The position numbers were made by a program, and so were the translations under genes. From Panopea generosa (taxonomy: Eukaryota > Mollusca > Bivalvia > Adapedonta > Hiatellidae), in the NCBI GenBank assembly GCA_029582155.1, contig CM055908.1, forward strand, positions 24,614,757-24,678,756: DNA of 64,000 nt. The letters are read 5' to 3'. Under the pieces are notes generated by a model. The model did not search any database and was not told the origin of the DNA. It saw nothing but the letters and a program-made list of their open reading frames with translations. Positions 1,842 through 45,026 of this stretch are shown here, in pieces. Within the stretch, counting starts at the first letter, position 1, and each line of letters begins with the position of its first letter.

Positions 1842-4800
1842 TTTACCAACGGGTTGAAGGCAAATCCACCCAGTCCTGAGCCAGACACAGCAAGTCCTAT
1901 TGCTAAAGACCTCTTCTTCTCAAAATACTGGATCAAAACCAAATATGCTGTCATGACCATCATGCTCAGACCTAAACCTGAGAAGAGAATCAAGAAAACA
2001 CGAGTATATTTCACAACAATTGAAAGTTCCAATTTGTTAAAGAAAAGAAAAAAAATGTAAGGGATATTGCCCAGGAAGGAGGTAATCTATGGAGGTAATC
2101 TAACGAGGTAGTCTAATGGGGCTCGGGTGATTAAACGATGCAAAAGGCGATTCCTTAGTGTATTTTAACATAAAATATGAAAACTCTACGTTTCTAAAGA
2201 TTTTAATACAAATGATCAAACATTCATTATAGGATTAAACTTTTCGAAGCACGCATAAATCAAATAAAGTCCGAAGGACTTTGTCAGATTTGTGTGTGAT
2301 TCAACATACTTTACACATGCATGAAAAGCAGAATTTTTTTTTTTTGAGACACCCCTTAAATGAAAATATATTAAGGAAACTTAAAATTATCCGCTGTGTA
2401 GTAAACGCGTATGAATACATAACATCTGATATTAACTGAAATTCACTAACAGCCTATGCACATTCCGCATTTTGGGGAAAAAAGTAAATAAAATGCACTA
2501 TTCGACACATTTTATTAACCAATGATGATAATATATTCGAAACAATAACAAAACAACGAAGATCGTAAAGAACTATAATTTTCTGTAACACTATGGGGTT
2601 TCCTCCACTTATTTATACGGGTCATCTATTCATTTAGTTGTTAACAAAGTGGAATGAACCATGTGTTACAAATCCCGACAACTGATGAATGTCTGGATTT
2701 ATCTGCGATTTATACAAACGAGCGACTGTGCTAGAATTTTGTGAATAAGGACACGGAGATGTTGAAGGGAAACACAATGATTGAGTAAACGATGGCTGCA
2801 GTGCACGCCCGATGGTGGATGGAGAACAGGTTCAGCAACGGGCATGGTGTTTTTCCAACCGGTAGCTACCGATTCAAACACAAAAAAAATATGTTGTTTC
2901 GTGTCGTACTAGGACGGCGAGAATGATTTTTGAGTGATTCTTCACGTTTGTGGTCTGCCATGAACATAATATTCCGACTTTCAAAGCCAACATCATTCAT
3001 GGCCTGGATTGCTGTGGCCCTTATAGAATGGCCAGTGTACCGTTTAACACTAACATATTTGCAAATATCTGGCATGAAACTAGAAACATGCTTCACCTTT
3101 ACTGGGGCATCTTTATACCAGATGGGAGTTGCGGGATCATGAATAGCTGCTGGGTTGCATTGGTTAAATAGGTGAGTAGGTTTTTGGTCTGTTTTTGTTA
3201 AACGCAATTTTACACACTCTACAGGACACATGGATCCCCCAGTAGCATACATTCGTTTGTATGGTGTTTCCTCAGAGTCTGCTGTTGACTCGAGGCCACC
3301 TTAGTTGTTTTTCCGGTGGGTTTCGTGTGTGAACGTAATATATTCGAGGCCAGAGTCGTCTCTTAAAACTTTTAAAGACGTTGTTTTCAGTTGGTTGTGA
3401 AACTCATCCCTCGGGCGGCAAAGTGATACCCTAATATGTACCACATTTTAAACCGCATTACAACTGGGTTGTTATTTTGTAGGTAGGTATTTTTTCAAAA
3501 TCTTTGGTCTCAATGCTTTGGTAGTGCTTTGTCGGTCGTGATAAACCCTGCTTCAAATTCAACTTCATCTTTGCACTTAGCATGCTGTTAGTTTTCTCAC
3601 AAACTTTGTCTTTCGCAATATCAAAATCTCTGTCTATGTCTTTAAGATGCATGTTTATTGCTGACCGGGCATTTTTCATATAGAGTTCTTGTGATACTCT
3701 TTTGCCTGCTCATCGTTCATGTGGCGCTGTCTGCTTTTTGGAGTTACTCCAGCATAGAACGTTCTCAATAATTGACTCAGGCAATTGTTGAAATTGCCAG
3801 AAAGTCAATCAGACTACTTAAACACTAACTGCACCATTCTGAAAAGAATAACATTTAAAACTGATTGGACAAACATCTTGGTTTCAGTGTTCTTTTTTTT
3901 AACACTGTTTTTTTTTATCAATAAAGGGTGTGGCGTTTGCAGAAACAGTGACTTAATAGCATATATCACTGGCAGGAATAACACACATGAAATTGGAGAT
4001 TGCTCGTCTCATCAAGTGAATATTTCATGGAAAATGAGTAGTTTCTTGTTAGAATCTGGGGAGAGGGGGTAAGAATTAAAAGCACTTGTAGCGACATACA
4101 CCTGTTTTTATTGAAGGTATTGATTTAATATTTAGCATTGTTTTTATTCCATTGTGGGATTACAGAGGATCAGTGTAATCAGGTCCCTCTTTCATGGGAA
4201 CCAATATTCAACCACACCTTTCTCCACGAGAACCTGATAACTTTTCCACTTGAATCACTGGTGAAACAAACAAAATAAAATTATACACGCAATTCCACAG
4301 AGATTGTGGCCGGGAAGGGATTACAACTCGCGGCCCTTGCATTGATAGTCAGATATGCTTGCTACCAACCGAGCTAACAGAGCCCGGCTTTTGTCCAAAC
4401 AAATAGAGAGAGTTAGATTTTAACCCGAAAAAAAGATTACATTATAGAAATAAAGCATTTTTTAAGCATTTAAAAATTCGTCCTGACAATAATTAACACA
4501 ATATTTTTACGAGTAATGAAACTGATTTTTGTTCATTGATGCTAAATTTGCAACAACATTGATTCATCAATGAATTCAGTTATCATATTATTAATAAAGT
4601 TGCGTATGGTAAAGATATAGTACACATTCATTGAAGGTACATTTCATTACAGTAAAAAACTATAATAATACTGGCATTCAATTATACATGTGGGCCGCTA
4701 ATTTAGCAATATTTAGGAAATCTGAGTGTCACAGTGTGTACTTATTTCGTAAAAAGAGAAATATATGCAAGCAATCTGGCTAGCTAAGTCGGTAGAGCAT

Positions 4801-7800
4801 TCGCCCTGTAAGCGAAATGTCTACCGTACTGGCTGTATATTTTTCTCGTCCTGTTACATTGGCACCCAACGGGCAACTGTGACATATACAGTTTCTTAAT
4901 TTTGAGATTTCATGAGTTTCTGTGTATTTGTAATGGTTTCGGATAAGGCACCCTTCTACAAAAACTAAAAACATGCTTACAAATTTATATATTTGTATTA
5001 TATTATTTTCACATGTGATAAAGTAAAGAAAGTAAAGAAAATACACTATTCAGTTTCTAATTTCTTCATTGCATACAGCATCAATGTAATTCAGAAAATA
5101 ATCTAAATTATTGTTTACCATTGAAAACTCTAACACCCCATTTTGTGTTTTGTTAGGTAAATGACTTCCAATGTGTTCAATGGCGTTTCATCCAGACATT
5201 TGAACCTCTTTGCTGGATGGGCTTCTTGCCATGGTTTATAGGTTTTATGTGGGAGCGGATCCTCGACTGGGAGACGTTCTGTTGTTGAGAGCGACTCTGC
5301 TATTACGAGTGGATCGACTGTTGCAAGTCCATGGTTGGCAGTGGGTCGGTTGTTAGGAGAGATTCTGTGGTTAGAAGTGGGTCGATTGTTGCAAGACAGT
5401 CCTTGGTTGGCAGTGGGTCGGTTGTTAGAAGAGATTCTGTGGTTGGAAGTGGGTCGATTGTTGCAAGACAGTCTTTGGTTGGCAGTTGGTCGGTTGTAAG
5501 AAGAGATTCTGTGGTTGGAAGTGGGTCGATTGTTGCAAGACAGTCCTTGGTTGGCAGTTGGTCGGTTGTTAGGAGAGATTCTGTGGTTGGAAGTGGGTCG
5601 ATTGTTGCAAGACAGTCCGTGGTTGGCAGTGGGTCGGTTGTTAGGAGATAGTCTGTGGTTGGAAGTGGGTCGATTGTTGCAAGACAGTCCGTGGTTGGCA
5701 GTGGGTCGGTTGTTAGGAGAGATTCTGTGGTTGGAAGTGGGTCGATTGTTGCAAGACAGTCCGTGGTTGGCAGTGGGTCGGTTGTTAGGAGAGAGTCTAT
5801 GTTGGCAGTGGGTCGGTTGTTAGCGTCTCCTTCTCTGGAACCTTTGTTAAAGTACATTGATTAACATGTATTTACACATGCATAAAAATAATTTATAAAC
5901 TATCGACATTTGAAACACATTAAAAGAAGTTTTAACAGACAATTTCTTGTATTTTCTTGTTTTTATATGTTTATCAAGGCAAATTTTGCATTTAATTTTT
6001 AAAATTGAAAACACTGACTGAAACATGCATTCAATCAGTACTATGATATTTATTTTCGTACCTTCAATTGTCTGCGTTAAAATGACTGCAAATCCGTCAA
6101 CATCTTGCATTAATGAGTGAAACAGTGACTGCTTTTCTTCTTGATTTATTCAGTCGTCACAAGGTACCACAAACTCAAAATTGCCGTAATCGGCCATTTT
6201 GTCGACACGGTGCGAGTACGATGTAATTAATTTGGCAATTCTGGCAGACGCTTTGAATCAAACATACGTTTATAAACAATGAAAGTGTAAAAAAAATACT
6301 TTGTTATTTGTGTTATATTTTATTATTTAAATAATAGTTTAACCGCGATGCACGCCATTTTCGTTTGTATTATTACCGAATACCAAATGCTGATGGATTT
6401 ATTTTCTAGTGTCCTTATCAACAATCCGCAATCTTTGTTTACGCTAGACAACGTAAATAAATAGTCAAGCTCAAGCGGGTTTTATCGAAAAATAAAAAGT
6501 CTTGAAAACGTTGGCCTTGACCAATGAAATGCCTTAAATACATAAAATTATGTAAAAGTGCGACTGCAAATATGGTACAATAATATGCACTTACATTGCA
6601 ACAAATAAGTGTGGATTCTGGAAGCTGCAGATCTCTGCAGAAATGTAGAAATCTTTCAGTTGGATTGATTTGGAACATAAAGCTTTTTACACTGATGTAC
6701 TTACCTCCTAGTGCGTCTAGTGACAGTTCTGATTGAAAATAACAATGTACTTACCTCCTAGTACGTCTAGTGACAGTTGTGATTGCTATTAGCAATGCAC
6801 TTATCTCCTAGTACGTCTAGTGACAGTTGTGATTGCTATTAGCAATGCACTTACCTCCTAGTACGTCTAGTCACAGTTGTGATTGATATTAACAAGTACT
6901 TACCTCCTAGTACGTCTAGTGACAGTTGTGATTGCTATTAACAATGTACTTACTTCCTAGTACGTCTAGTGGCAGTTGTGATTGCTATTAACAATGTACT
7001 TACCTCCTAGTACGTCAAGTGAATGGCAGTTCTGATTGATAATAACAATGTACTTACCTCCTAGTACGTCTAGTGACAGTTGTGATTGCTATTAGCAATG
7101 CACTTACCTCCTAGTACGTCTAATGACAGTTGTGATTGATATTAACAATGAACTTACCTCTTAGTACCTCTGGTGACAGTTGTGATTGCTATTAAAAATG
7201 TACTTACCTCCTAGTACGTCGAGTGACAGTTGTGATTGCTATTAACAAGTACTTACCTCCTAGTACGTCGAGTGACAGTTGTGATTGCTATTAACAAGTA
7301 CTTACTTCCTAGTACGTCGAGTGACAGTTGTGATTGCTATTAACAAGTACTTACCTCCTAGTATGCCGAGTGACAGTTGTGATTGATATTAACAGTTGTG
7401 ATTGATATTTGCAATGCACTTACCTCCTATTACGTCTAGTGACAGTTGTGATTGATATTAACAATGAACTTACCTCCTAGTACGTTTAGTGACAGTTGTG
7501 AATGATATTAACAATGTACTTACCTCTTAGTACGTCTTGTGACAGTTGTAATTGATATAAACGATAAACTGGTACTCACAGTGACAAATAACGACTGTAG
7601 TTGGTTATAGCGATTAACTTACCTAGTAATACCCCCAGTGACAGGCATAAATAGGGAATACGTGTAATCATGCAGATGTACTTACTTAGTTACTAAAATC
7701 TCTTATTACAGACAGAAAAAGTGAATACTTCATATTACATCAATGTACTTACCTTCTAATTCTACCAATGACTTACAGAACTATGGAATTCTTGTCATTT

Positions 7801-9664
7801 TACCTTCTTATAGTCCCAATTACAGACAAAGGAGGGGTTGTTTTTTATATATTGATGTACTTGCCATCTAAAACTCACAATGACATAAATATATCTACCT
7901 CCCAGTACGCCTAGTGACAAGCAGAGGTAGATCACACTTGTAGCAAACACACTTATAAACAACGCCGCAGACAGTAGCAAACTTCCGCAGATCGTCACGA
8001 CCCTGCATCCAAATTTGTTTACCAAAGAACCGGAAATTGGTCCTGTGATAAAATACAGATGCCACATAGTGTACATTTTTTTTATCTCATCTGTAAACTA
8101 AATTGTTATTGTTCAATGGTATATATTTCTGATATCTTCTAGTTCAATTGTAAATATTACTGAAGTGTTATTGTTCAATGGTAAATATTACTAAAGTGTT
8201 ATACTTCAATGTTTAATATTATTAAAGTGTTATAGTTCAATATGGAATAAATTACTGATGTGTTATAGTTCAATGGAAACTATTACTGAAGTGTTATAGT
8301 TCAATGGTAAATATTATTGAAATGTTATAGTTCAATGGTAAATGTTACTAAAGTGTTATAGTTTAATAGTAAATATTACTAAAGTGTTAAAGTTCAATGT
8401 TTAATAGTACTACAGTGTAATAGTTTAATATGGAATATATTACTGAGGTGTTATAGTTCAATGGCAAATATTACTGAAGTGTTATAGTTCAATGGTAAAT
8501 ATTACTAAAGTATTATAGTTCAATGGTACATATTACTAAAGTTTTATAGTTCAATGGTACATATTACTAAAGTAATATAGTTCAATGGTAAATATTACAA
8601 AAGTATTATAGTTCAATGGTACATATTACTAAAGTATTATAGTCCAATGGTACATATTACTAAAGTATTATAGTTCAATAGTAGATATTTCTGAAGTGTT
8701 ATTGTTCAAAGGCAAATATTACTTAAGTATTATAGTTCAATGGTAAATAAAGTATTATAATTTAATGGTAAAAATTACTGAGGTGTTATAGTTCAATGGC
8801 AAATATAACTAAAGTATTATAGTTTAATGGTAAATATTACTAAAGTATTATAGTTCAATGGTATATATTATTAAAGTGTAATAGTTCAATGGCAAATATT
8901 ACTGACGTGTTATTGTTCAATGGCAAATATTACTGAAGTGTTATAGTTCAGTGGTAAATATTACTGAAGTGTTATAGTTCAATGATTAATATTACTAAAG
9001 TGTTATAATTAAATGAAAAATATTACTAAATTGTAATAGTTTAATGGTAAATATTCCTTAAGTGTTATGGTTCAATATGTGGTATATTACTCTAGTGTTA
9101 TATTTCAATGGTAAATGTTACTCAAGTGTAACAGTTCAATGGTGAATAAGACTAAATTGTTAAACATTGCTCAAATGTTACAATTTAATGGTTAATATTA
9201 CTAAAATGTAAAAGTTCAATATGGCAAATAATACTGAAGTGTTAACAGTATTGTGGCACTTACTATAAGAACGTATTCTTTCTTTGATATCCATGGGTGA
9301 ATTGATGGACACCATATAAAATAGCTGTTATAATCACTATAGAAATACGAAGAAAAATCAAGGGTGGTATTACACCACAACAGTCAATATTTGAATATTT
9401 ACCGCTTCTGCAGTCAATATAATTACAAGAGTAGTATGGTCTTACAGACGATAAATGTGCCTTACCAGCTGTCAGCGTTAGTCCGAACACAATCCCACCT
9501 ATACAACCTACAGCTCCTTTACTGCCACCGAAGTAGTCGTAAAATTCAATATAAAGGATGCCAAACGAAAATCTTATACCATCCATGATAAAGTTTAAAA
9601 AGAATGCAGCAACTACTATGACCCAACACCAGCCCCCATCTTTGACATTAGTATCTGTTGTCAT
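1842..9664 (-). CDS. Monocarboxylate transporter-like protein MCT-B (SLC16 family), 5' part; 3' exons beyond left edge
   Basis: Three coding exons are visible, transcribed right to left: exon 1 9466-9664, exon 2 7899-8042, exon 3 1842-1977. They give 479 nt in one frame, ending in phase 2. Exon 1 carries the SLC16 first-helix signature KDGGWCWVIVVAAF. Exon 2 has the TM2-TM3 loop NKFGCR and ends ...LCLSLGVLG. Exon 3 has QYFEKKRSLAIGLAVSGSG and FNPL. Splice sites: donor GTAAGG after exon 1, acceptor TTTATCACAG and weak donor GTAGAT around exon 2, acceptor TTCTCTTCTCAG and donor GTAAGA around exon 3. The ATG at 9664 is preferred over an upstream GTG because it aligns with the start of the MCT-A copy. 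Members of the family are 12-TM plasma-membrane transporters, often proton-coupled, for lactate, pyruvate, aromatic amino acids or creatine; the substrate here is not predictable. The missing loop exon, TM7-12 and stop should lie left of position 1. The 2- and 3-exon lengths match MCT-A exactly, showing tandem duplication. Confidence 0.9.
2870..3690 (-). pseudogene. Decayed Crypton-type tyrosine recombinase
   Basis: Read on the minus strand, three blocks in order and in shifted frames match the DUF3504/Crypton-type recombinases common in invertebrate genomes. 3480-3680 encodes a core-binding-like start (KNARSAINMHLKDIDRDFDI ... GLSRPTKH). About 3250-3450 encodes LWYILGYHFAARG, with the first catalytic Arg region. 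2870-3250 encodes the catalytic C-terminal part, with YTGHSIRAT (the HxxR motif) and ADHKREESLKNHSR. The position normally holding the nucleophilic Tyr reads His (CAT, one transition away from TAT), and there is an in-frame stop plus frame breaks between blocks, so it is dead. It lies inside MCT-B intron 2 in the same orientation as the gene. Element ends were not found. Confidence 0.72.
4120..4392 (-). mobile_element. tRNA-derived SINE, family 2
   Basis: On the minus strand a tRNA-like head has an A box TAGCTCGGTTGGTAGC and a decayed B box GCGAGTTGTAATCCC near 4320-4390. The body contains GATTCAAGTGGAAAAGTTAT and ends GCTAAATATTAAATC. The same body and end occur at 61797-62073. It lies in MCT-B intron 2. 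Confidence 0.65.
4776..4840 (+). mobile_element. tRNA-like SINE head
   Basis: TAGCTAAGTCGGTAGAGCAT resembles a tRNA A box and D arm, followed by an anticodon-arm-like GCCCTGTAAGCG. There is no B box and no acceptor pairing, so it is a fragment and not a functional tRNA. Confidence 0.4.
5303..5830. repeat. 72-bp minisatellite, about 7 copies
   Basis: The unit is itself two related halves, GTGGGTCGGTTGTTAGGAGA and GTGGGTCGATTGTTGCAAGA. Since 72 is divisible by three, long open frames appear on both strands (minus-strand period DPLPTTDCLATI). It lies in MCT-B intron 2. I do not consider it coding. Confidence 0.85.
6697..7898 (-). repeat. 50-bp tandem array of the MCT-B exon 2 end and splice donor
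   Basis: About 17 well-conserved copies (6697-7565) read on the minus strand as GTCACTAGACGTACTAGGAG followed by GTAAGTACATTG, then about 15 nt of spacer. The first part corresponds to the exon 2 end GTCACTAGGCGTACTGGGAG. The stretch 7565-7898, directly next to the exon, holds about five more strongly diverged copies recognisable by their donor-like ACTTACC/ACTTGCC blocks. The array is therefore continuous with the exon 2/intron 2 junction of MCT-B. Confidence 0.85.
8100..9245. repeat. AT-rich tandem array, unit about 30 bp
   Basis: Roughly 37 degenerate copies of a unit containing GTTATAGTTCAATGGTAAAT and ATTACTAAAGT. It fills nearly all of MCT-B intron 1, between exon 2 (ends 8042) and exon 1 (starts 9466). 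Confidence 0.85.
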
Positions 9665-10517: not shown

Positions 10518-13500
10518 CTAATCTGTTCCTTTCCGTTCTTGAATACACGGAATGAGAAGAAGGCACACGCCACCCAGGACAAACGTCACACCGCCAGTTA
10601 AGAAAGATATTTCATATGTGTGTGTTAGGTCAAATATCCAACCTGAAAGAAGATTTAAACGAATGGGTTATATTCGGAACAGAACGGCTAACCGGTCACC
10701 TGGCACGTATCAAAGAATTTTAGCTAACCTGCCATCTAACATTTTTTGTAATTTCTCAAAAAGTATCAAAGCAATTTTCGTGAAATTTGGACTTAAATTA
10801 GAAAGAAACTTTAGGATAACAATGACATACGGGTCTGATAATGTCGTTATCCACTAGTTTGGCGAAGATATTGGAAAAACAAAAGTGACGGGTTAGCTGC
10901 TCTGTTCAGTATAATTGTAACAAGAAATTAAATGATAGCTAGTTAATACTTATATATATTCTTGACGTATCTCATTCTTTTAACCGAGTATTTAAAAAAA
11001 AAATAGTTCTATCCCATTACTGTACAATTACAATGGACGCTCCAGTATGCATTTTGATACATTGTCGTGCATTTGGATACATTGTCGTGGTCTGTATTTA
11101 TGAAGCGTCACTGATGATCATTGGTATCAGTCATTTAATGTAAGTTATCAGTGATTGAAATACTCCAATGGGCTGAGGCTGAACTGTTCGGCTCCAAATT
11201 ATACTTTAGTATCAATTATATATACGTTTATACTGTATCCAGAATTAGACTTTAGCAACATAATTAACTTTCGAATATATATATAGAGAGAGAAAGAGAG
11301 AGACAAGCATAAATAACAAACTTTATTATCGAAAATATCCTCGTTTACACCCACTGTTTCCTGACATAGATCTACATTCATACTATTTCAGACTATATAG
11401 TTGATCATTTAGTGACGAGCGATTTATAAAAACATGTTTTAACAGTTGTTGCGAAATATCTACTGATCGAGAACTGACAGCTCACCTGCTAAAGGACTTC
11501 CTATCACGCCAGCAACACCACCGAAGAACAGTGACAATCCAAATGAATTGGCCACGATGGCATCTCCAAACAGTTCGCTCAGAACAACCGGTATAAGCAC
11601 CATAGCAGACACTGGAAATGAATTAACAGTTACACTGTTATAGTTCACAACGGCGGTTCTTCATTTGTAATACATTTACTAACACACACGTACAATTAAG
11701 CCATACGCTACGTATAGCCTACATAACATGACAGCAATAATGTTTTGTCTGTAGAACGAACCCAGCTATACCGATTGGGTCTGTTAAATTGCAATGAACG
11801 GAAAGCCCATTTGAGCGCCTTGATTGGTCAGTTGCTTCAGGGAAAATTTAAATGGCGTCACTGTTTAATAAGAGTTTGATTGCTATGAATTATGGGACAG
11901 ACATAGAACTTTGGGTGTTAATAGACCTGATTCGGGAGATATCATGTTTTGGAATAGACTAATGTAAATTTTGGAAATCATGTCAATAGGTTATACCGTT
12001 AGAAATATGAAATCACGATGTTTTGAATTGTGTTTTTCTGACTTTACGCTTTATGAATATGTCAACATGAATATGAGTTGTTCTAGCTATATATTTGAAT
12101 CGCTAAAAGAAGTTAAAGGTAATACATTGTGTTAAGATGCAATGTTCATTTTGATCCAGTTGTGTATTTATCATTGAACCAGATGGTATTGTTTTTTAGA
12201 AATATTTTACCCTTAATTGTCGTAACAGTCGTGTTTAAAATTATTTGGAAGTGACTTTATTATTAACTTTAACTCAATGCAGATTTCAGACTAAAAAAAA
12301 GAAGAAAAAAAAAACTCCACAATTAAATGGTATACAAGCAGGCTTATATATTTCTATTGCAAAGTGTTGCGCTGGCCCTCGATGTATTTTGGTGAATATA
12401 TGACGTATGATTTACTGAAAATATGCGCATATCTGTGAAGTACAGTAAGTAGATCTTTTCACAATTCAATATCACAACATAAGTGTGCCAGTCAGGATAT
12501 ACACCGGCAAAGTTTTGGATTTTATACCACATCAATTGCAAAGAAAGCTTTATATTATACACGAAGAAAACCTAAACTAAAATATGTTAGGTCGAAACAA
12601 ACTTTCAGTTACAATATTATGGTAGAATTAGAAAGTATTTGTCATATTTAAGTAGATCTAATTTGTAGGATAAAATTTAAGAAACTATGTGTCCAACGGA
12701 AATCGTGATATTCAAAAACAGTCATCGCAACAGAATTCTATATGATCAACTGTAAGTCTATAAAAGTAATACAAACTGTAAGCCTTACCTATACTTATTG
12801 AGTACCATATACACGCTGCCATTAGCAGTCCGTACAAATGACAGAATGGCATCACTGCACAAGACACTCCAGCAGACGTACATAATATAAACATCAACTT
12901 TAAACCTGAAACAAGTTTTTTGTCCGATATAATGCCTATTGGGATACGGCTGACGACATTTGCTATACTCATGGCGTTCATAATCCAGATGACGTCATTC
13001 TGCGTCACGTTGTCTAAGTTTTCAAATACCATATCCGGAACGTAAATAAAAGGCACCATATAGAACATATTGATAAATATTTCAAATAGTATAAATAGTA
13101 AAAACTTCTTTCTACGAAGAAGGGATATCATAAAAATACCGGTGCAAAATGAACGTAGTGTCGACACTTCTTTAATGGGTTCACTAAGCATGCTGATGTT
13201 TTCATCTGGCGCCTTATTTTCCAGATCAACTTCGTCTCTTAAGTTTTCAGTTTTAGAGTCTGTCAAAGAGTTTTTGTCATTTATTTCTTCTTTTCCAACT
13301 GAACATCCGTTTTCATCTAGATTATTTGTATCAATGTTTCTTGTACTATATCGCATTTCTGTTCCGATTTCATCGTCTAATGTTTCTTGTTTCTGCCTGC
13401 ATGATTGGAAAGGTCTCATTGCTGCACCACAGACGACACCGTTCAGAAGGATTCCCGCCAATATCAGCAATGTTCCACGCCAGGCGTACGTGTCCAGAAG

Positions 13501-16500
13501 CCACCTGAATGAAGAAACTATTGCATCGAAATATAATCGTTAAATGAGGTATTTAGGTCTTTATCTTTAGACAACCGCACCCACTACATACAGGTCATTT
13601 AAGTGCAGAAAATGTCATCCGACATTAATATACATTAAGAGTGCCAACTCTATCTTATACTGTCAACATTCCATGACTGAGACTTTAATACAATTATTTT
13701 ATGAATTTATTTCGATTTTTCGAAGCTATCGCTAAAAGTGAATATTCTACGGCGTCAATAACGGGTTTATATATCCTGGCGAATGGTTTATGCGCTCGTT
13801 ATTGACGCCTGTGAATTTTCACTTTTAGGGCTAGCTTTAAATAATAACGCTTATGTCATTATGTCGAAATAATATTTAGATAACTTGTATTGCAGCTTTG
13901 CAATCATTATATCCACCCTATTTACTGGCCCAGCATCATGTAAGTGTATCCAGGGAGATGGGTTTATAAGACTGACGTGGACCTACTCGTAAATTGTTAT
14001 TCATCCTGTATTATATTTCAAGATTAAACACCGCTAATAATTCTAGACTTACTTAGTCAACGGGTTGAAGGCAAATCCCCCAAGTCCTGAGCCGGACACA
14101 ACAAGTCCTATGGCCAATGATCGTTTCTTCTCGAAATACTGGATACAGACCATATAAGTCGACATAAACAGCATGCTGAATCCCAGTCCTGATTAACACA
14201 AAATAAAAACATGAGACTTTCACGCGACACTGACTGTTTAAGCAAACCTTATAACAATTACCTCTGTGATATTCGGAGCAGATATCATGACTTGCAAGCT
14301 ACAGAAATGTGATATATTTCTTGCAACCAGATAGATATTTTCATTTTATCGTAGTTATATATACTATTTCTATCACATCCTAGTGTTTTAGCACGTGCCG
14401 TTGAAATCATTTATAATGTTTCGTTTAAAATATACAATGGAACGTATATGTAAGCTGACGTCTTAAAAACGATCGTCGTAAAAAAATACATTTGATGGAT
14501 TGAATAAAATAATTACTAAATGTGTTTGATATGCAAGGAAACGAATCATTAATGACTTTTTTTTTATCCTTCGGGACGAAATGTTGTGTCCGATTTTCAA
14601 ACTCATTCAAGACTATAGTCTATCATTTTGTTATATCAGAAATTTGAAATATACGAGAGGTGTTCGAAATGTATTGTGTATTTACCCTCTTACCATTAAT
14701 ATCTTACTAAATCGCTAATGTCTTCATTTCATACCCTCAAAGTATTCTTCCCGGTTAGAAAAAAGTAATTTTAGTCTGGGATCCATTTCTGTTTATGTTG
14801 TTTATCAGAGAAAGAATCACGGTAAGCTGTTTGGGGTATACTACGAGGACACGGGTTAACGCCAAAATCAAGAGTCTGCCGTGACCCATATCTACAACCT
14901 GAGAAGAAGTGTTTCTTTTTTAATTAAGGATAGAGAAAAAAAAATCACATGGGACAAGATTTGGGGAGTCAGGGGTGCTTTAGCACTGTCACTTTCTCAA
15001 ACTTCAAAGAATTCGTGACAATGAAAGAGGAACGTTCGGGCATTGTCATGCAAAAGGCGTACATGTTTGAACACAATGACTGGGCGACGTTTTTCGTAGT
15101 TCTTTTTCAGTTTTTCAGTACCACATCACAAAAGTACATCCATTTAAATGTTTACTCTTGTTTACCGGTACTTTCATCGCTAAACCTTTAACAGAGAAGG
15201 TTTTTTTACGCTCAAGGTCCGTTTGGCCTTCTGTCCTGTTTTGTGGCCCGTATTTTGTTTCCAGCTTATCGCACTGGTTCTAGATAGTGTACCCAGGTTT
15301 CGTCACCAGTGACAAAATTTGCAAATTGTCTTTGTTTATATTCAGGAAACATTTTAAATAGTTTCTTTGGCAGTTTCAACACGAGCCTTCTTTTGGTCAT
15401 TTTCAACAAGTGGGGCCTCAACTAACAGAAATTTTCCTGACTTTCATGACTTCTCAGAATGAAATGAAATGAAGATACCGAAACGCCTGCATTGTGTGCT
15501 ATATCACGCACATTATATCGCGCATAATTTCGAACCATTTCTCTACTTTTAGGAACATTTTGCTAACATGTTGCCGTCTTTGGTCGACCAGATATGGTTG
15601 CATTTTTAACAGACTCTACACAAGATTCAGCATTACTTTTTCCATCTACGTACTGTCTCATAAGACACTTATGTCAACCCATAAACCCGTGTGATTTCAT
15701 TAAAAATATATTTTAAAGAACAACCGAGTTTAGCACGAACTTTGATATAAGTCCGAATTTCCACATTATTTGCTACTCGTTTCCCAACCATTTTTAAAAC
15801 AAAGGTCAACGACTGCCTATATTGAAATGACTAATTCTTGAACCCCTTGTTTCAGCAGATACATGTATATACCATTGTGTAGGTATCAGATAGAGCTAGC
15901 CATGCGTATCAATATCGATGTAAAATTCCACGTGAAACTTGCGCGACTTTTAAGTACATGTTCAACACCCCTCGAATGTGATTATATGGATGTATTTACA
16001 ACCTAAAACCCTCACTGCTAGGTAGATATACGATATACTTACCTCCATAGACGTCCAGTGATAGACAGAGGAATGGACAACTGGTGGTTATATCTATATA
16101 CGATATACGTACTCTCAAGACGCCAACTGACAGGCAGAGGTAGGGACCACAAGTGGTTATATCGATATATGATATACGTACACTCAAGACGACCGGTGAC
16201 AGACAGAGCTAAGGACCGCTTGTGGTTATTTCGTATATCGATATACGTACTCTCAAGACGCCCAGTGACAGGCAGAGGTAGGAACCACTGGTGGTTATAT
16301 CGATATACGATATACGTACTCTCAAGACGCCCAGTGACAGGCAGAGGTAGGGACCACAAGTGGTTATATCGATATATGATATACGTACACTCAAGACGAC
16401 CGGTGACAGACAGAGCTAAGGACCGCTTGTGGTTACATCGATATACGATATACTTACCTCCCAAGACGCCCTGTGACAGACAGAGGTAGGGACCATTTGT

Positions 16501-19500
16501 GGTTATATCGATATACGGTATACTTACCTCCCAAGACGCCCAGTGACAGACAGTGGTAAGGACCGATTGTGGTTATATCGATATACGATATACTTACCTC
16601 CCAAGACGCCCAGTGACAGACAGAGGTAGGGGACACTTGTTGTTATATCAATATACTTATTTCCCAAGACGCCCAGTGACAGGCAGAGGTAGGGACCACA
16701 AGTGGTTATATCGATATATGGTATACGTACACTCAAGACGACCGGTGACAGACAGAGGTAAGGACCGCTTATGGTTATATCGATATACGATATACTTACC
16801 TCCTGAGACGCTTAGTGACAGACAGAGGTAGGGACCACTCGTGATTATATCGATATACGGTATACTTACCTCCCAAGACGCCAAGTGACAGACAGTGGTA
16901 AGGACCGCTTGTGGTTATATCGATATAGGATATTTACCTCCCAAGACGCCCAGTGAGAGACAGAGGTAGGGGACACTTGTGGTTATATCGATTTAAGATA
17001 TCAACTCCCAAGACCCCGGGTGAAAAACAGAGGAAGGAGACACTTGTGGTTATATTGATATGCGATATACATACCATACCGCCCAAGACGCCCAGTAAGA
17101 GACATGTATTTACAACCTAAAACTCTCACTGCTAGGTAGATATACGATATACTTACCTCCAAAGACGCCCAGTGAGAGACTGAGGAAGGGATCACCTGTG
17201 GTTATATCGATATACTTACTTCCCAAAACGTCCAGTGAGAGAATGAGGTAGGGACCACTTGTGGTTATATCGATATACTTACCTTCCAAGACACCCAGTG
17301 ACAGAGGTAGTGATCACTTGTGGTTATATCGATATACGATATACTTACCTCCCAAGACGCCTAGTGAGAGACAGAGGTAGGGATCACTTGTGGTTATATC
17401 GATATACTTACCTCCCAAGATGACCAGTAAGAGACACAGGCAGGGACCACTTGTGGTTATATCGATATAGGATATTTACCTCCCAAGACCCCCAGTGAGA
17501 GACAGAGGTAGGGACCACTTGTGGTTATATCGATATAGGATATTTACCTCCCAAGACGCCCAGTGAGAGACAGAAGTAGGGACCACTTGTGGTTATATCG
17601 ATATACGATTTACTTACCTCCCAAGACACCCAGTGAGAGACAGAAGTTGGGACCACTTGTGGTTATATCTATATACGATATACTTACCTCCCAAGACGCC
17701 CAGTGAGAGACAGATGTAGGGATCACTTGTGGTTATATCGATATACTTACCTCCCAAGACGACCAGTAAGAGACACAGGCAGGGACCACTTGTGGTTATA
17801 TCGATATAGGATATTTACCTCCTAAGACCCCCAGTGAGAGACAGAGGTAGGGGACACTTGTGGTTATGTCGATATGCAATATACTTACCTCCCAGGACGC
17901 CCAATGACAGACAGTGGTAGGGACCACTTGTGGTTATATCGATAAACGATATACTTACCTCCCAAGATTCCCAGTGAGAGACAGAGGTAGGGACCACTTG
18001 TGGTTATATCGATATAGGATAGTTACCTCCCAAGAACCCCTGTGAGAGACAGAGGTGGGGACACTTGTGGTTATATCGATATGCGATACACTTACCTCAC
18101 AAGACGCCCAGTGAGAGACAGAAGTTGGGACCACTTGTGGCTACATCTTTATACGATATACTTACCCCCACGACCACCAGTGAGAGACAGAGGTAGGGGA
18201 CACTTGTGGTTATATCGATATACGATATACTTACCTCCCAAGACCTCCAGTGAGAGACAGAGGTAGGGGACACTTGTGGTTATATCGATATACGATATTC
18301 TTACCTCCCAAGACACCCAGTGAGAGACAGAGGTAGGGACCACTTGTGGTTATATCGATATAGGTTATTTACCTTCCAAGACCCCAAGTGAGAGACAGAG
18401 GTAGGGAACACTTGTAGTCATATCGATATACGGTATACTTACCTCCCAAGACACCCAGTAAGAGACAGAGGTAGGGGACATTTGTTGTTATATATAAAGA
18501 ATGAGGTAGAAGACACTTGTGGCTATATCGATATGCGATATACTTACCTCTCAAGACGCCCAGTGAGAGACAAAAGTTATGGACCACTTGTGGTTATATC
18601 GATATACGATATATTTACCTCCCAAGACACCTAGTGAGAGACAGAGGTTGGGACCACTTGTGGTTACATCGATATAGGATATTTACGCCCCAAGACCCTA
18701 GTGAGAGACAGAGGTGGGGGACACTTATGGTTATATCGATATACGATATACTTACCTCCCAAGACGACCAGTGAGAGACAGAGGTAGGGATCACTTGTGG
18801 TTATATCGATATACGATATACTTACCTCCCAAGACACCCAGTGAGAGACAGAGGTAGGGACCACTTGTGGTTATATATCTATATACGATATACTTACCTC
18901 ACAAGACACCAAGTAAGAGACAGAGGTAGGGGACACTTGTGGTTATATCGATATACGATATACATACCTCCCAAAACACCCAGTGAGAGACAGATGTAGG
19001 GGACACTTGTGGTTATATCGATATACGATATACTTACCTCCCAAGACACCCAGTGAGAGACAGAAGTAGGGACCACATGTAGTTATATCTATATACGATA
19101 TACATACCTCCCAAGACACCCAGTGAGAGACAGAGGTAGGGAACACTTGTAGTCATATCGATATACGGTATACTTACCTCCCGAGACACCCAGTAAGAGA
19201 CAGAGGTAGGGGACATTTGTTGTTATATCTATATACGGTATACTTACCTCAAAAGACGCCCTGTGAGAGACACAGGTAGGGATCACTTGTGGTTATATCG
19301 ATATGCGATATTTACCTCCCAAGACACCCAGTGAGAGACAGAGGTAGGGGACACTTGTGGTTATATCGATATAGGATATTTACCTCCCAAGACACCCAGT
19401 GTCAGACAGAAGTAGGGACCACTTGTGGTTATATCGATATACGATATACTTACCTCCCAAGACATCCAGTGAGAGACAGAGGTAGGGGACACTTGTGGTT

Positions 19501-20786
19501 ATTTCGATATATTTACCTCCCAAGACACCCAGTGAGAGACAGGTGTAGGGGATACTTGTAGGTATATCGATATACTTACCTCCCAAGACACCCAATGAGA
19601 GACAGAGGTAGGGGATACTTGTGGCAAACACGCTGATAACAAAGCCCCCAGATACTAACAAACTGCCGCTTATTGTCATGAGTCTGCATCCAAACTTATT
19701 TATCAGAGAACCTGAGATTGGTGCTGAAATTGAGAAATGTTTGTTTATTTATATATTGACAAACTTGACATATTTGTTTATATACATCCATTACAAACTA
19801 AGCTTTACACGACCTTAAAAGCGGGAATGAAAACATAATTGCTGTGGTTTTGCTTTTGAGATTCCCAAATATGTGTCCAATTGACGACCACTTACTGATT
19901 TTACTTTATCTGGTTATTTAAATCGTTTATCAAGAGAATTAAGCACATGACTTGTTGGATTGAACACAGTTTTAATGTAACTGTTCAAACAGGTTATACA
20001 CTTTATAAATAGGTCCTTTGATTTAGCTTTTGAAAGCTATGCACGCTCGTCTTTTTCGAAGAAAATAATGTCTTAGATAAATAGATAAATGAATTAATTC
20101 TAAATGTGACAATAAATGGAATGTTAATCTTCAAATTTGAATTCTGTTAGCTCGTACTTTATCTGTATGTATTTTTTTCTGACAGTTATGATATATATTT
20201 TTAACAAAATATTATTTATTTTGCCCCGCACCCCCCCCCCCCCCCCCCCCCCCCCCGGTAAAGATAAACTACCTGATAAAGTTTATCAAGTACAATGTTA
20301 ATCAACACACATGGCGTATAAACAGGAGTAGTATTCACCAACCATTCTTGAGAATATTCTTAGACTTGAGCTTGAAAATCCAAATTTCAAGCTTTTATAT
20401 GTGGTTTACAATACAATGACAAATAGAATAATTGTGCTAACTTATTTTACTACATATTAGGTGTTCCTACATGCTTCCCATTTTTTACCTAAAACATGGT
20501 CTCTACGTGTGTTTTTCAAAATTCATTTGTGTGTTCAAGTCTTGAACATATTCTTAAGAATAGTTGGTGAATACCATTTCAGGTATATTGGTTTCTTACC
20601 GGCAATAAGCAATAAGCCAAACATTACACCACCTATCCAGCCAACAAACCCCTTTCCACCGCCGAAATAGTCGTGAAATTCAATGAAAAGGATGCCGAAT
20701 GAATACCTGATACCATCCATGAAGACGTTGATTACGAAGGCGGCAAACACCACTACCCATCCCCAACCTCCGTCTTTTGTCGTCAT
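10518..20786 (-). CDS. Monocarboxylate transporter-like protein MCT-A (SLC16 family), complete
   Basis: Six coding exons: 20600-20786, 19580-19723, 14053-14188, 12789-13504, 11486-11611, 10518-10642. They join to 1434 nt, 477 codons plus TAG, with every GT-AG junction in phase. Exon 1 opens MTTKDGGWGWVVVFAAF, the SLC16 TM1 signature. Exon 2 holds NKFGCR, exon 3 QYFEKKRSLAIGL and GSGLGG. Exon 4 (716 bp) starts WLLDTYAWRGTLL, then encodes a charged cytosolic TM6-TM7 loop of roughly 90 residues, then TM7-TM10 with an Arg in NVVSRIPIGIISDKK that sits where the functional TM8 Arg lies in the family. Exons 5-6 encode TM11-12 and a short tail ending ERKGTD. The sequence just before the ATG reads as a 3' splice site (ATCATCAG), so a non-coding 5' exon probably lies upstream (above 20788). 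The length is typical of SLC16 proteins. The subfamily and substrate are not determined. Intron 2 contains a mariner copy and a 3.6-kb array built from the exon 2 donor region. Confidence 0.93.
13723..13838. other. Long hairpin / foldback in MCT-A intron 3
   Basis: The left arm AAGCTATCGCTAAAAGTGAA...GGCGTCAATAACG pairs with the right arm CGTTATTGACGCC...TTCACTTTTAGGGCTAGCTT. The stem is about 42 bp with few mismatches and a loop of about 30 nt. It is either a miniature foldback element or a structured RNA precursor. Confidence 0.6.
14654..15974 (-). mobile_element. Mariner-family DNA transposon, degenerate
   Basis: The element is 1321 bp, the usual mariner size. Its ends are imperfect inverted repeats: left CGAGAGGTGTTCGAAATGTA at 14654, right (reverse complement) CGAGGGGTGTTGAACATGTA ending at 15974. 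On the minus strand a start at 15791 opens MVGKRVANNVEIRTYIKVRA and is then interrupted. The catalytic VTGDETWVHY box lies near 15283-15314, and a later HDNART box (first Asp codon of the box at 15047-15045) supplies the third catalytic Asp. The HPPYSPDL region that normally follows is altered to KAPLTPQIL, and stops break the frame. It sits in MCT-A intron 2 between exon 3 and the exon-derived array. Confidence 0.85.
16020..19579 (-). repeat. 63/70-bp tandem array of the MCT-A exon 2 end and splice donor (about 50 copies)
   Basis: Each unit, read on the minus strand, carries about 45 nt matching the last codons of MCT-A exon 2 (frame TSIPYLCLSLGVLGG). GTAAGTATATCG follows, then an 18- or 25-nt AT-rich spacer rich in ATCGATATA. 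The array abuts the real exon 2 donor (19580/19579) with no gap. Two unit lengths occur: 63 bp, which keeps the reading frame, and 70 bp with an extra CGATATA. Copies in the left third (16.0-17.0 kb) mainly carry GACAG, while those nearer the exon carry GAGAG, so subfamilies are spatially ordered. Confidence 0.92.
20231..20256 (+). repeat. Poly(C) tract, about 26 nt
   Basis: Nearly uninterrupted C run in MCT-A intron 1, left of MITE copy 1. Long dC/dG runs are rare in an AT-rich genome and its length may be affected by assembly. Confidence 0.85.
20331..20574. mobile_element. MITE copy 1 (244 bp, inverted terminal repeats)
   Basis: It starts GTATTCACCAACCATTCTTG and ends with the reverse complement of the same sequence, TATTCTTAAGAATAGTTGGTGAATAC. 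There is no coding capacity. It lies in MCT-A intron 1, 26 bp beyond the exon 1 donor. Copy 2 is at 36177-36399. Confidence 0.75.
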
Positions 20787-28144: not shown

Positions 28145-31100
28145 TCAACTCTGCGCATGCGTGTACTGTAACTTTCCCTCATTAAAGTCTTTCACAACAT
28201 GTCCATCTCCTTCCAATATCCACTTAGTGGTCAGTAGTCCCTCCACGCCCACAGGGCCACGTGCATGGATCCTGGATGTACTGATTCCAACTTCCGCTCC
28301 TAAAACAAACAACAGTTTGAATGAGTTAAAGTTGATATTTTGGTTATTTAATAGGTGGAAAAAAACAACAACCGTAAACATGTGTGTTTGGAACAGTTAA
28401 CAGGTCAACATCCCTGTCTTTCATTGTTTAAACGTTTTAAACTGTTAAATTGGCATTAAACCCCGTTTAAAGTATATATATTTCGGCCATTAGGGGGTGG
28501 AACATACTACACGTATCTTGGTATAGTGCTACAAGAACATTTGGATTTAAATGTTACAGCTAAAGCTGTCGCGCAGAGTGGAAGTCGTGCCCTTGGTCTT
28601 TTAATTGCTAAATGCAAAATAATTGGAGGAGTTCCTTAAAATGTATATACAAAGCTTTATGACTCCATTGTATGGCCTGTAATAAATTATGGGGCTGCAA
28701 CATGGGGTTGTAAATCATTTTCATGTATTGATGCTGTTCATAACCGTGCTATGCGATTCTTTTGAGGGGTTGGCAAATATACGCCAAATTCAGCTATTGT
28801 TGGTGAAATGGCTTGGCAACCTACTATTGTTCGTCAATGGAAAACTATTTCTACATACTGGTGTCGCCTATCCTCTATGAATGAAAGTAGACTCAATCAA
28901 AGGATTGCACTCTGGTCTTACTTAAAAGCTAATGTTTCTTGTAAAAATTGTATGTATATGGTAAAAAAACAATTTATATCACTAAACAGTTTTCGAATAT
29001 TAATGTTAACATCACTATGCGTACTCTTGTTGATGACGTCACAAAGACAGTTCTGGATATTTATACCAGTGATTGGTTTTCATCTATAAGGCGAATAGAC
29101 AGTATTTCTGGTAAAGGACGAAACAAACTACGCACCTACCGCTTATTTAAATCTCATTTTGAAGTTGAAAATTATTGTAAAATTATATTACCTTTAAAGC
29201 ACAGGTCTGCTTTTAGTAAGTTTCGTTGTGGTGTTGCCCCAATAAGAATTGAGACCGATAGATATGACAATCTCAAATTAGAAGATAGAAAATGCCCCTT
29301 TTGTAACACAGTGGAAGATGAAAGTCATGTTATTTTAGAATGTCATCTTTATAATGATCTTAGAAAAATTTTATTTGAAAAAGCAGCTGCAATTAATGAC
29401 AATTTTAATAATTTGTCAAATGTTGATAAGACAGTATTCTTATTTTCCCACTCTTCTTTGATTCGTGTTTGTGCCAAAACCTGTTTTAACATATTACAAA
29501 GATGTGCATTTTACCTCTGTAAATAATGCATTTTTTGTTTTATATGTATAATGTTACCTTTTTATCAACTCCTATGTGTATGCTGCAAATCAGTTCTTTT
29601 CTGATCTGATCAGAGGGGATAATCGATACTTTAAAATATTTTTTATATTGCGCACTAGTGCTTTTTTTTCTTGTCAGAATTTTAAAATGTTGTTTATCTT
29701 AACACTTTTTTAATCAATCGATTTGCAGCATAACACATAGTCTTATTATGTGAATAAATAATTGTATTTTGCATTGTGTGATAGTCTCTTGTAATTCATA
29801 TATTTGAATGGCTATGTACATATACTGTTTGATATTAATGTTATCGTTATTGCGATGTACAAATAAATATTTAATATATATAATATTTTGAGGCCCCGGA
29901 ATGAGGTTGAATATTTGGGGTAAAATAACACTGCATGCAATGTAGATTATTCAACAAAATCCCTATAAAGTATATGTAGATTATCAAACAAAATCCCTAT
30001 AAAGAACATGCAGATTATTCAACAAAATCCGTATAAAGTACATGTAGATTATCAAACAAAATCCCTATAAAGAACATGCAGATTATTCAACAAAATCCCT
30101 ATAAAGTACATGTAGATTATCAAACAAAATCCCTATAAAGTACATGCAGATTATTCAACAAAATCCGTATAAAGTACATGTAGATTATTCATCAAAATCC
30201 CTATAAAGTACTTGTAGTTTATTCAACAAAATCCCCATAAAGTACATGTAGATTATCAAACAAAATCCCTATAAAGAACATGCAGATTATTCAACAAAAT
30301 CCCTATATAGTACATGTAGATTATCAAACAAAATCCCTATAAAGTATATGCAGATTATTCAACAAAATCCGTATAAAGTACATATAGATTATTCATCAAA
30401 ATCCCTATAAAGTACTTGTAGTTTATTCAACAAAATCCCCATAAAGTACATGTAGATTATTCAACAAAATCCCCATAAAGTACATGTAGATTATTAAACA
30501 AAATCCCCATAAAGTACATGTAGATTATTAAACAAAATCCCTATAAAGTACATGTTTTATAAACATGCTGCTTACGTAAATGAAAAAGAATGTCGGAGAT
30601 ATATGTGAGACTTCTTTACAACACGTATGTGTGGTCTCACATAAGCTTCACCCTGTGTTAATAATTTAGTTTCATTTCAGCAATTTTATGGCCCAAGGGA
30701 GATAACAGATTTAACATATTAATGTATATATCTAACATTGTATTAATTCCTATAAAAAAAACACCAAAAAATACGCGATTTTTAAAACTACGTCATTCTA
30801 TTTTAGATGGAACCTACCGTATTAGGGATGACAGCACATTCATCTGTTACAATCAAGTACAAATACCATCTATACAAACCCCAGTGTAACATAGAAAAAA
30901 TGAATTGTCCTTTTTTCAACTCACGTTGAAACTCACGTAACATAAGTCTACACATTTCACGACCTATTTTGCCACGTTACTCCTGTTAGGTCCTGCCAAG
31001 AAGTACACCGAGCGTGAACAAATTCTAACTCAGATCAGATTTAATTTAGGAAATGCTCTTTATATAACGTCTCTTTAAAGTTACGTAAAAAATAAATGTC

Positions 31101-34100
31101 ACCACACGAGTGGCGTAAAAGGAATGAAGGATGGTGTTGAGAGAAAGAAACAAGTGTAGTGCTGCAGATGGAGGGATAGTGTGGTGGTTGTATGAATAGT
31201 GTTGTGGCCGGAGGAATGGTGTGAAGAGTATATAGGTGGTGTCGCGGCGTGACGGCTGGCGTGAATGGCAACACGCACGGTATTGCAAACGAAAAGATGG
31301 TGTAAATAACGAATATGTGGTGTGTTGTGGGCGGAGGGATTGTGTTTCGGACGCACTTTAGTATGAAGGACGTATGAATCGTGTTGTGGACGTTGGAATT
31401 TTGTTTTGGACAGAGGAATTGTGTTTCAGATGCACTATATATAGTATAGTGTGAAAGGCGTATGAATTGCGTTTTGGCCCTAGGGATTGTGTTTCGGAAG
31501 CACTATACGGTGATAGTGGCATTGTGGACCTAGGGATTGTGTTTCGGACGCACTTTAGTAAAGGACGTATGAATGGCGTTGTGGACGTAGTGATTGTGTT
31601 TCGGACGTGTTATAGTGTGAAGGACGTATGAATGGCGTTGTGGTCCTAGGGATTGTGTTTCGGACGCGCTATAGTGTGAAGGACGTATGAATGGCGTTTT
31701 GGTCATAGGGATTGTGTTTCGGACGCACTATAGTGTGAAGGACGTATGAATGGCATTTTGGTCCTACGGATTGTGTTTCGGACGCGCTATAGTGCGAAGG
31801 ACGTATGAATGGTGTTGTGAACCTAGGGATTGTGTTTCAGACGCGCTATAGTGTGAAGGACGTACGATTGGTGTTGTGGTCCTAGGCATTGTGTTTCTGA
31901 CGCGCTATAGTGCGAAGAACATATGAATGGCGATTTGGTCCTAGGGATTGTGTTTCGGACGCGCTATAGTGCGAAGGACGTATGAATGGTGTTGTGAACC
32001 TAGGATTTTGTTTCGGACAAGCTATAGTGGGAAGGACGTATGAATGGTGTTGTGGACCTAGGGATTGTGTTTCGGACGCGCTATAGTGTGAAGGATGTAT
32101 GAATGGTGTTGTGGACCTAGGGATTGTGTTTTGGACGCGCTATAGTGTGAAGGACGTATGAATGGCGTTGTGGTCCTACAGATTGTGTTTCAGATGCGCT
32201 ATAGTACGAAGGACGTATGAATGGCGTTTTGGTCCTAGGGATTGTGTTTCGGACGCGCCATAGTGTGAAAGACGTATGAATGGTGTTGTGGACCTAGGGG
32301 TTGTGTTTCGGACGTGCTATAATGTGAAGGACGTATGAATGGCGTTGTGGACCTAGGAATTGTGTTTCGGACGCGCTATAGTGTGAAGGATGTATGAATG
32401 GCGTTTTGGTCCTAGGGATGGTGTTTCGGACGCGCTATAGTGCGAAGGATGTATGAATGGTGTTGTGGACCTAAGGATTGTGTTTCGGACGCGCTATAGT
32501 GCGAAGGACGTATGAATGGTGTTGTGGACCTAGGGATTGTGTTTCGGACGCGCTATAGTGGGAAGGACGTATGAATGGTGTTGTGGACCTAGGGATTAAG
32601 TTTCTGACGCGCTATAGTGCGAAAGACATATGAATGGCGTTGTGGACCTAGGTATTGTGTTTCGGATGCGCTATAGTGTGAAGGACGTATGAATGGCGTT
32701 TTGGTCCTAGGGATGGTGTTTCGGACACGCTATAGTGCGAAAGACGTATGAATGGTGTTGTGGACCTAGGGATTGTGTTTCGGATGCGCTATAGTGTGAA
32801 GGACGTATGAATGGTGTTGTGGTCCTAGGCATTGTGTTTCGGACGCGCTATAGTGCGAAGGACATATGAATGGTGTTTTGGTCCTAGGGATTGTGTTTCG
32901 GACGCGCTATAGTGCGAAAGACGTATGAATGGTGTTGTGAACCTAGGGATTGTGTTTCGGACGCGCTATAGTGCGAAAGACGTATGAATGGTGTTGTGGA
33001 CCTAGGGATTGTGTTTCGGATGCGCTATAGTGTGAAGGACATATGAATGGTGTTGTGGACCTAGGGTTTGTGTTTCGGACGCGTTATAATGTCAAGGACG
33101 TATGAATGGTGTTGTGGTCTTAGGGATTGTGTTTCAGACGCGCTATAGTGTGACGGACGTATGAATAGTGTTGTGGACCTAGGAATTGTGTTTCGGACGC
33201 GCTATAGTGTGAAGGACGTATGAATGGCATTTTGGTCCTACGGATTGTGTTTCGGACGCGCTATAGTGCGAAGGACGTATGAATGGTGTTGTGAACCTAG
33301 GGATTGTGTTTCGGACGCGCTATAGTGTGAAGGACGTATGAATGGTGTTGTGGACCTAGGGATTGTGTTTCGGATGCGCTATAGTGTGAAGGACTTATGA
33401 ATGGTGTTGTGGACCTAGGGATTGTGTTTCGGACGCATTATAGTGTGAAGGACATATGAATGGTGTTGTGGTCCTAGCGATTGTGTTTCAGACGCGCTAT
33501 AGTGCGAAGGACGTATGAATGGTGTTGTGGACCTAAGGATTGTGTTTCAGACGCGCTATAGTGTGAAGGATGTATGAATGGTGTTGTGGACCTAGGGATT
33601 GTGTTTGGGACACGCTATAGTGGGAAGGACGTATGAATGGTGTTGTGGACCTAAGGATTGCATTTCGGACGCGCTATAGTGGGAAGGACGTATGAATGGT
33701 GTTGTGGACCTATGGATTGTGTTTCGGACGCGCTATAGTGTGAAGGACGTATGAATGGCGTTGTGGACCTAGGGATTGTGTTTCGGACGCGCTATTCCGA
33801 AGGATGTATGAATATTGTTGTGGACAGAGTGATTGTGAAGGACGTATGAATGGTGTGTATTGAGATTTTTCTAAACTAATGTTTAATTCGAAACCTCTGT
33901 GTTACTGTATGTAGGCTATGACATGTACATACCTAGACCAAATCTGTACCCGTCTGAAAATCGTGTACTCGTATTGTGGAAAACGCATGCGCTATCAACT
34001 CCCTGTAGAAAACAATCGGCAGTCTCGTCTGAAATCGTAAAAAAATGCAAAGTCCTTTACTTGTATATCTAAACATAATGCACTGACAACTAATTTAAGT

Positions 34101-44961: not shown

Positions 44962-45026
<65 letters not shown>

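Follow-up and report, generated by a model that had tools for sequence, protein, structure and literature searches.

How does an intron come to open with dozens of copies of the very exon end that it follows, and which of the resulting donor sites does the gene use? The question is raised by a 64,000-nucleotide (nt) stretch of the Panopea generosa genome (the window; C15:24614757-24678756, part of a 1.47-Gb assembly in 39 contigs), on whose minus strand lie two paralogous transporter genes, MCT-A and MCT-B. Intron 2 of MCT-A begins with an array of units that each span the exon-2/intron-2 boundary. This array is a new, very large representative of the mirages, lancelet minisatellites spanning exon-intron boundaries, whose description covers its defining anatomy (PMC3087553, PMC3902484; here and below, statements on published systems refer to the available excerpts of the cited papers). 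Very probably it is a tolerated minisatellite that arose by duplication of the boundary and is spliced mostly at the genuine donor. The array and the exons of the gene are the following:

16025..19579, minus strand: donor-type junction array, 51 intronic copies of the exon-2 end, 5' splice site and an AT-rich spacer
20600..20786, minus strand: MCT-A exon 1 (ATG..GCCG, then GTAAGAAA), based on open frame, MCT homology and splice sites
19580..19723, minus strand: MCT-A exon 2, from whose 3' end (TSIPYLCLSLGVLG plus G) the repeat unit derives
14053..14188, minus strand: MCT-A exon 3, the first exon past the junction array
12789..13504, minus strand: MCT-A exon 4
11486..11611, minus strand: MCT-A exon 5, the last in the model

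Judged by its sequence, MCT-A is a monocarboxylate-transporter homologue. Its model, exons 1-5, has GT donors throughout and AG acceptors at exons 2-5, and the joined exons encode 436 amino acids in a stop-free frame, matching MFS_1 in Pfam (E 2.9e-35) and, among solved structures, monocarboxylate transporters 2 and 1 (E 4e-33 and 1e-31).

Tandem Repeats Finder (TRF) describes the array by overlapping rows, 16025-19624 with period 138, 16025-18493 with periods 70 and 208, and 18513-19624 with period 70. Wrap-around alignment of 15990-19640 to a 70-nt unit gave 55 rows, mostly 63-70 nt long, three of them with at least 25 gaps and 52 fuller ones, which represent the genuine exon-2 end and 51 intronic copies. 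The figure of about 50 tandem copies in the initial annotation of this DNA was thus close, as was its estimate of some 45 exon-derived nt per unit, the exon-like part consisting of the 29 nt directly before the donor and about 14 nt preceding those. It had also placed the array in direct contact with the genuine donor, and indeed the two adjoin at 19580/19579 with zero gap, the donor of the next copy lying 63 nt further on. Tandem units of minisatellite size, exon and intron sequence across a splice site within the unit and contiguity with a genuine exon-intron boundary, the anatomical hallmarks of a mirage, are all found here. Mirages are further characterised by undisturbed regular splicing and by lengths that vary between haplotypes or cells; in MCT-A the predicted canonical product stays open over exons 1-5, and the one assembly shows the trace of a block duplication described below.

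The resemblance of the copies to exon 2, proposed in the annotation as more than chance, is just that. At a threshold of at least 20 of 29 matches to the MCT-A exon end, 51 sites were found in 15990-19560, whereas each of 20 shuffles and both strands of 19701-64000 gave none; one more lies in MCT-B intron 2 (2101-7898), which carries a related array. The array copies match the exon end at 24.8 of 29 positions on average, and in a non-exhaustive DNA search of the genome with the unit all 50 of 50 matches fell inside the MCT-A array. Chance resemblance is excluded.

Two features bear on how the array grew. Identity to the exon end declines with distance from the exon (Spearman rho -0.59, n=51), as it should if the copies come from the exon end, or if the latter exchanges with those nearby. 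The array also contains an internal copy of its own distal edge, consistent with duplication of a block of about 1.1 kb:

17104..17214, minus strand: copy of the array's distal edge (matching 15990-16100), about 35 nt of it lying outside the unit

A like array is present in the paralogue, for which the relevant features are:

9466-9664, 7899-8042 and 1842-1977, minus strand: MCT-B exons in the model
7899..8042, minus strand: MCT-B exon 2, with donor GTAGATAT
6695..7562, minus strand: MCT-B donor-type junction array, 50-nt unit, 17 copies by TRF
7563..7898, minus strand: stretch separating exon 2 from the array, in which degraded junction copies lie (donors 7803, 7752 and 7622)

Two further MCT-B homologous stretches lie just outside the window, within locus L068. 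Of 155 aligned residues the two paralogues share 117, and 31 of the 55 fourfold sites compared are different (Jukes-Cantor distance 1.04). In MCT-B, 19 sites directly before GTA match the gene's own exon end at 11 or more of 20 positions, compared with 1 of 733 background GTA sites; three of the 19 (7803, 7752, 7622) are the degraded copies between exon and main array. The 19 sites average 16.1/20 to the B exon and 11.6 to the A exon, the two exons sharing 14 positions, while MCT-A copies average 14.6 to the A exon and 12.9 to the B exon; the degraded copies score 11, 12 and 14 to B and 12, 13 and 13 to A. In a donor-anchored test of 21 B positions against two A spacer types (42 comparisons), the spacers after 7898 (the genuine B donor), 7752 and 7622 matched the A 63-type spacer at 11, 13 and 12 of 20 positions, scores equalled by 3, 1 and 1 of 370 background sites, and the main-array copies 7003 and 6953 matched the A 70-type spacer at 12, which none of the 370 did. 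From sequence, the junction array apparently predates the A/B split and was later re-amplified in B. A separate array in MCT-B intron 1 (8097-9162, 31 bp x 34), near the exon-2 acceptor, is apparently not derived from it, as no place in it exceeded the shuffle maximum in the comparison with that acceptor. Intron 2 of MCT-B also holds a 229-residue open frame running through a 36/72-bp array (5130-5819) and a further open frame at 2866-3300, which we take to resemble a tyrosine-recombinase fragment.

What would the intronic donors do if used? We scored GT sites with a donor matrix at a cut-off of at least 6 bits, and judged frame consequences over exons 1-5. The MCT-A array region holds 44 such sites, counting the genuine donor, and hence 43 intronic ones, one of which (GT at 17195) is out of register with the repeat. 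The initial annotation had spoken of some fifty near-consensus U1 sites; this holds for the 28 intronic donors that read GTAAGT, whereas many others are weaker (nine GTAAAT, three GTATGT and, in several distal copies, GTACGT). Donor-like sites reach 12 per kb in the array, as against 1.4 (minus strand) and 1.1 (plus strand) per kb in 19651-64000. When each of the 44 was joined to exons 3-5, only the genuine donor and those 63 and 126 nt beyond it kept the frame open; the remaining 41 introduced a stop. The two in-frame alternatives define one more feature:

19454..19579, minus strand: the first two 63-nt units; splicing at the predicted donors 19516 or 19453 would lengthen the open frame by 21 or 42 codons

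We infer the origin of the array from what is directly observed, namely its anatomy, its derivation from the exon, its contiguity with it, the frame consequences and the like array in MCT-B. In an ancestral MCT gene, a short duplication across the exon-2/intron-2 boundary would have given the intron an additional exon end and donor, and would have been tolerated because the exon-proximal copy retained an intact exon and donor. The array would then have grown by unequal exchange or slippage, probably including the block duplication, and have passed to both daughters of the A/B gene duplication, in each of which it would have diverged and been re-amplified. The spliceosome presumably takes mostly the genuine, exon-proximal donor; if the next two were used at a low level, the protein would gain 21 or 42 residues near the expected third and fourth membrane helices, while use of any other scored donor would bring a stop and probably decay. 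We take the array to be nearly neutral.

Several observations weigh against this account. Among 70 nine-base windows the donor has the second-lowest level of substitution (0.044 vs 0.084 overall), possibly a hint of selection; by gaps, however, it ranks 63rd and by all changes 58th, ranks that give no evidence of selection on the donors. In the exon-like part, variation at third codon positions is double that at the others; at a permutation p of 0.069 we do not claim coding selection on the copies, and the excess, were it real, would fit copies re-seeded from the coding exon. The shared ancestry of the A and B arrays depends on a few spacer comparisons, most of the 42 being unremarkable, and local alignment gave weak support for spacer homology (best result 26 of 2000 shuffles among 6 tests). 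Finally, near-neutrality cannot be assumed in view of the human ABCA7 gene, in which greater length of a donor-containing variable number tandem repeat (VNTR) in intron 18 correlates with more skipping of exon 19 and lower expression (PMC5954066).

This last case also lends some weight to the idea that the array is regulatory, its U1 sites competing with the genuine donor or retaining U1 on the nascent RNA. MCT-A output would then depend on how long the array is, by way of 'poison' donors that shift the frame, of exon 3 skipping or of a shield against premature polyadenylation. The local density of donor-like sites, the stops that 41 of 44 would bring and the fewer substitutions at the donor point the same way, but many donors are of the weaker kinds and gap changes there are frequent, and the lancelet Adh and TnC mirages are said to yield no aberrant mRNAs (PMC3902484); we consider this idea unlikely. 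Still less probable is that the array serves as a source of longer MCT-A proteins through donors 19516 and 19453. The two nearest units, being 63 nt long, in frame and free of stops, would permit it, yet donor 19516 is a GTAAAT of 7.8 bits against 11.6, the added residues would, on the expected topology, duplicate a portion of a membrane helix, and 63-nt units occur deep in the array too, so that their position next to the exon may be chance.

Stepwise removal of the intron, with AG|GTAAGT serving as both acceptor and donor in recursive (ratchet) splicing or as ready-made mini-introns, is very improbable. A recursive splice site combines a pyrimidine-rich acceptor, C or T before the AG and a donor immediately after it, and the MCT-A units lack this combination: AG is preceded by G in 38 of 40 AG|GTA sites of 15990-19640 (the genuine one included) and in 15 of 18 in B, and upstream pyrimidine content is 0.54 in the MCT-A array, compared with 0.67-0.87 at six genuine acceptors. 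Such poor acceptors make stepwise splicing unlikely. An assembly artefact or a fortuitous resemblance is hardly credible, given that the copies have diverged, that their divergence follows an ordered gradient and that similar arrays exist in other genes. For the tolerated boundary duplication that we favour, the genuine donor is most likely the main one, as predicted from the undisturbed splicing reported for lancelet mirages and the isoform shares at ABCA7, with a possible effect of array length on its efficiency.

Are such arrays found elsewhere in this genome? A protein search with MCT-A exon 2 (E <= 1) returned 117 matches, comprising A, B, eight array copies and 107 others. Many of the latter are clustered on contig C14, mostly at 44.0-47.5 Mb, a large MCT-like gene expansion. 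We examined 35 of the 107, 28 with 1.5 kb on each side and seven with 2 kb upstream and 7.8 kb downstream; A and B brought the set to 37 loci, in each of which both exon-2 junctions were compared with the sequence up to 1.5 kb away, many being C14 neighbours and thus not independent. At L008, L009, L012 and L019 an AG about 6 nt inside the exon was used as acceptor, leaving the acceptor side slightly out of register. Copies exceeded the shuffle maximum at two or more places in three of the 37, at the donor in A (19) and B (18) and at the acceptor in L027 (22); L021, L023 and L028 did so at one place each, by one match, and the other 31 had no junction copy above the maximum at these junctions and within this distance. 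At L027 (C18:36571005-36574148), an acceptor-type junction array ends intron 1, upstream of exon 2; TRF counts 33 copies, of which 27 carry the exon-2 acceptor and first exon bases at 21 or more of 32 positions (maximum of 20 shuffles, 19). A separate 32-bp array of 46 copies starts 54 nt past the exon-2 match of this locus.

Beyond the MCT family we searched the genome for words repeated three times with gaps of 24-54, each against a control word, and judged loci from the first 100 places. AGGTAAGT gave 7043 matches vs 2128 for the reversed word, AGGTGAGT 3233 vs 1313, the shuffled word GATGAGTA 1797 vs 1928, and the acceptor word TTTNCAGG 5549 vs 2727. These counts are not used as evidence of a genome-wide excess of donor arrays, since match counts do not carry over to loci: on C1 up to about 23 Mb, among the places listed, there were seven AGGTAAGT loci vs five GATGAGTA loci. 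At least four C1 loci (near 28.98, 41.58, 47.25 and 51.92 Mb) are common to the AGGTAAGT and AGGTGAGT searches and belong to a dispersed minisatellite with a unit of about 51 bp that has AGGTAAGT and AGGTGAGT on opposite strands, which inflates both donor counts; further AGGTGAGT places near 57-59 Mb on C1 are spaced in a similar way. Seven of the 19 array loci among the AGGTAAGT places listed were sampled at their edges (L071-L077), and one, L075, adjoins a recognised coding exon. The units of L071 and L072 are similar by eye, the view of L072 stopping short of the array's edge; at L073, L074, L076 and L077 no exon was recognised at the edge by eye, no search having been made. At L075 (C1:54177126 onward) the exon reads WFGNIVSPTWWDDLWLNEG, with an M1 aminopeptidase motif and a best E of 2e-6 to glutamyl aminopeptidase, and its donor is followed by a 51-bp array (7.4 copies in view by TRF), the consensus of which has the exon's last 13 nt before GTAAGTG. 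Single copies do not go beyond shuffles (13-16 of 20 for seven copies, whereas 14 is attained in 10 of 200 shuffles, with a maximum of 16), and we read L075 as a donor-type junction array because of its regular spacing and contiguity.

The related array of MCT-B, the acceptor array of L027 and the donor array of the M1 aminopeptidase gene are new here. Together they suggest that boundary-spanning minisatellites, described mainly in lancelets, can reach far larger copy number and can outlast a gene duplication as old as that of A and B. For the study of splice-site choice among many near-identical donors, MCT-A provides a natural series, its 44 donor-like sites all lying where a single intron begins. 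From the donor-type arrays in MCT-A, MCT-B and the aminopeptidase gene and the acceptor-type array in another MCT paralogue one might go further and suppose that exon ends of this genome repeatedly seed arrays which survive ancient gene duplications and are renewed from the exon. Exon end and array would then co-evolve, and the balance of genuine against poison donors would depend on the length of the array; we regard this as speculative and rather doubtful.

Elsewhere in the window there are large minisatellites at 51501-57180 (46 bp x 123) and 31522-33837 (59 bp x 39). Minus-strand open frames at 35450-46697, one matching AA_kinase and another without Pfam match, may be exons of a delta-1-pyrroline-5-carboxylate synthase, and an open frame at 28945-29526, likewise without Pfam match, resembles the end of a non-LTR (long terminal repeat) retrotransposon.

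The initial annotation knew of no described class of amplified exon/intron junction; this was mistaken, both lancelet mirages and the ABCA7 VNTR being precedents. More distant relatives include internal tandem repeats of human segmental duplications (PMC2812944), likewise minisatellites, some at exon-intron boundaries, in recent paralogues; about half of these, however, lie within coding exons, and those at boundaries are said to create novel introns. Introns gained through tandem duplication with AGGT proto-splice sites (PMC2891723, PMC4974935) likewise arise from duplication across or near a splice signal, but usually from a single one, which makes a new intron; no new intron is evident in MCT-A. 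For earthworm metallothionein intron repeats, no splice-site-spanning unit was found mentioned in the available text (PMC12783039). The ABCA7 VNTR (PMC5954066) is intronic like the MCT-A array, its first GT being the genuine donor, and has about 24 copies in the human reference; it differs in its 25-bp unit, which is described from the GT and not as an amplified exon end, and in being polymorphic, disease-associated and documented by isoforms. Two ABCA7 frameshift isoforms make up 14 +/- 6% and 2 +/- 1%, the second being taken as retention of a single unit, which is unchanged with VNTR length.

Lancelet mirages come closest. In the open-licence literature we found none of the size of MCT-A's and none outside chordates; those reported are in Adh3, the globins BflGb6 and BflGb9 and TnC, with like repeats in PGBD5, and are described as leaving splicing undisturbed (PMC3087553, PMC3902484). 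Unlike BflGb6, with three and six units in two haplotypes, MCT-A has about 52 units, and unlike the lancelet cases its array, known from one assembly, has a related array in an old paralogue. The genomes differ too, those of lancelets being roughly one third as large. In their anatomy the two agree: in both, units of exon, splice site and intron stand beside a genuine boundary. Donor and acceptor types occur in lancelets as in the present genome, and the MCT-A unit of 63-70 nt fits the 10-160 bp reported for lancelets.

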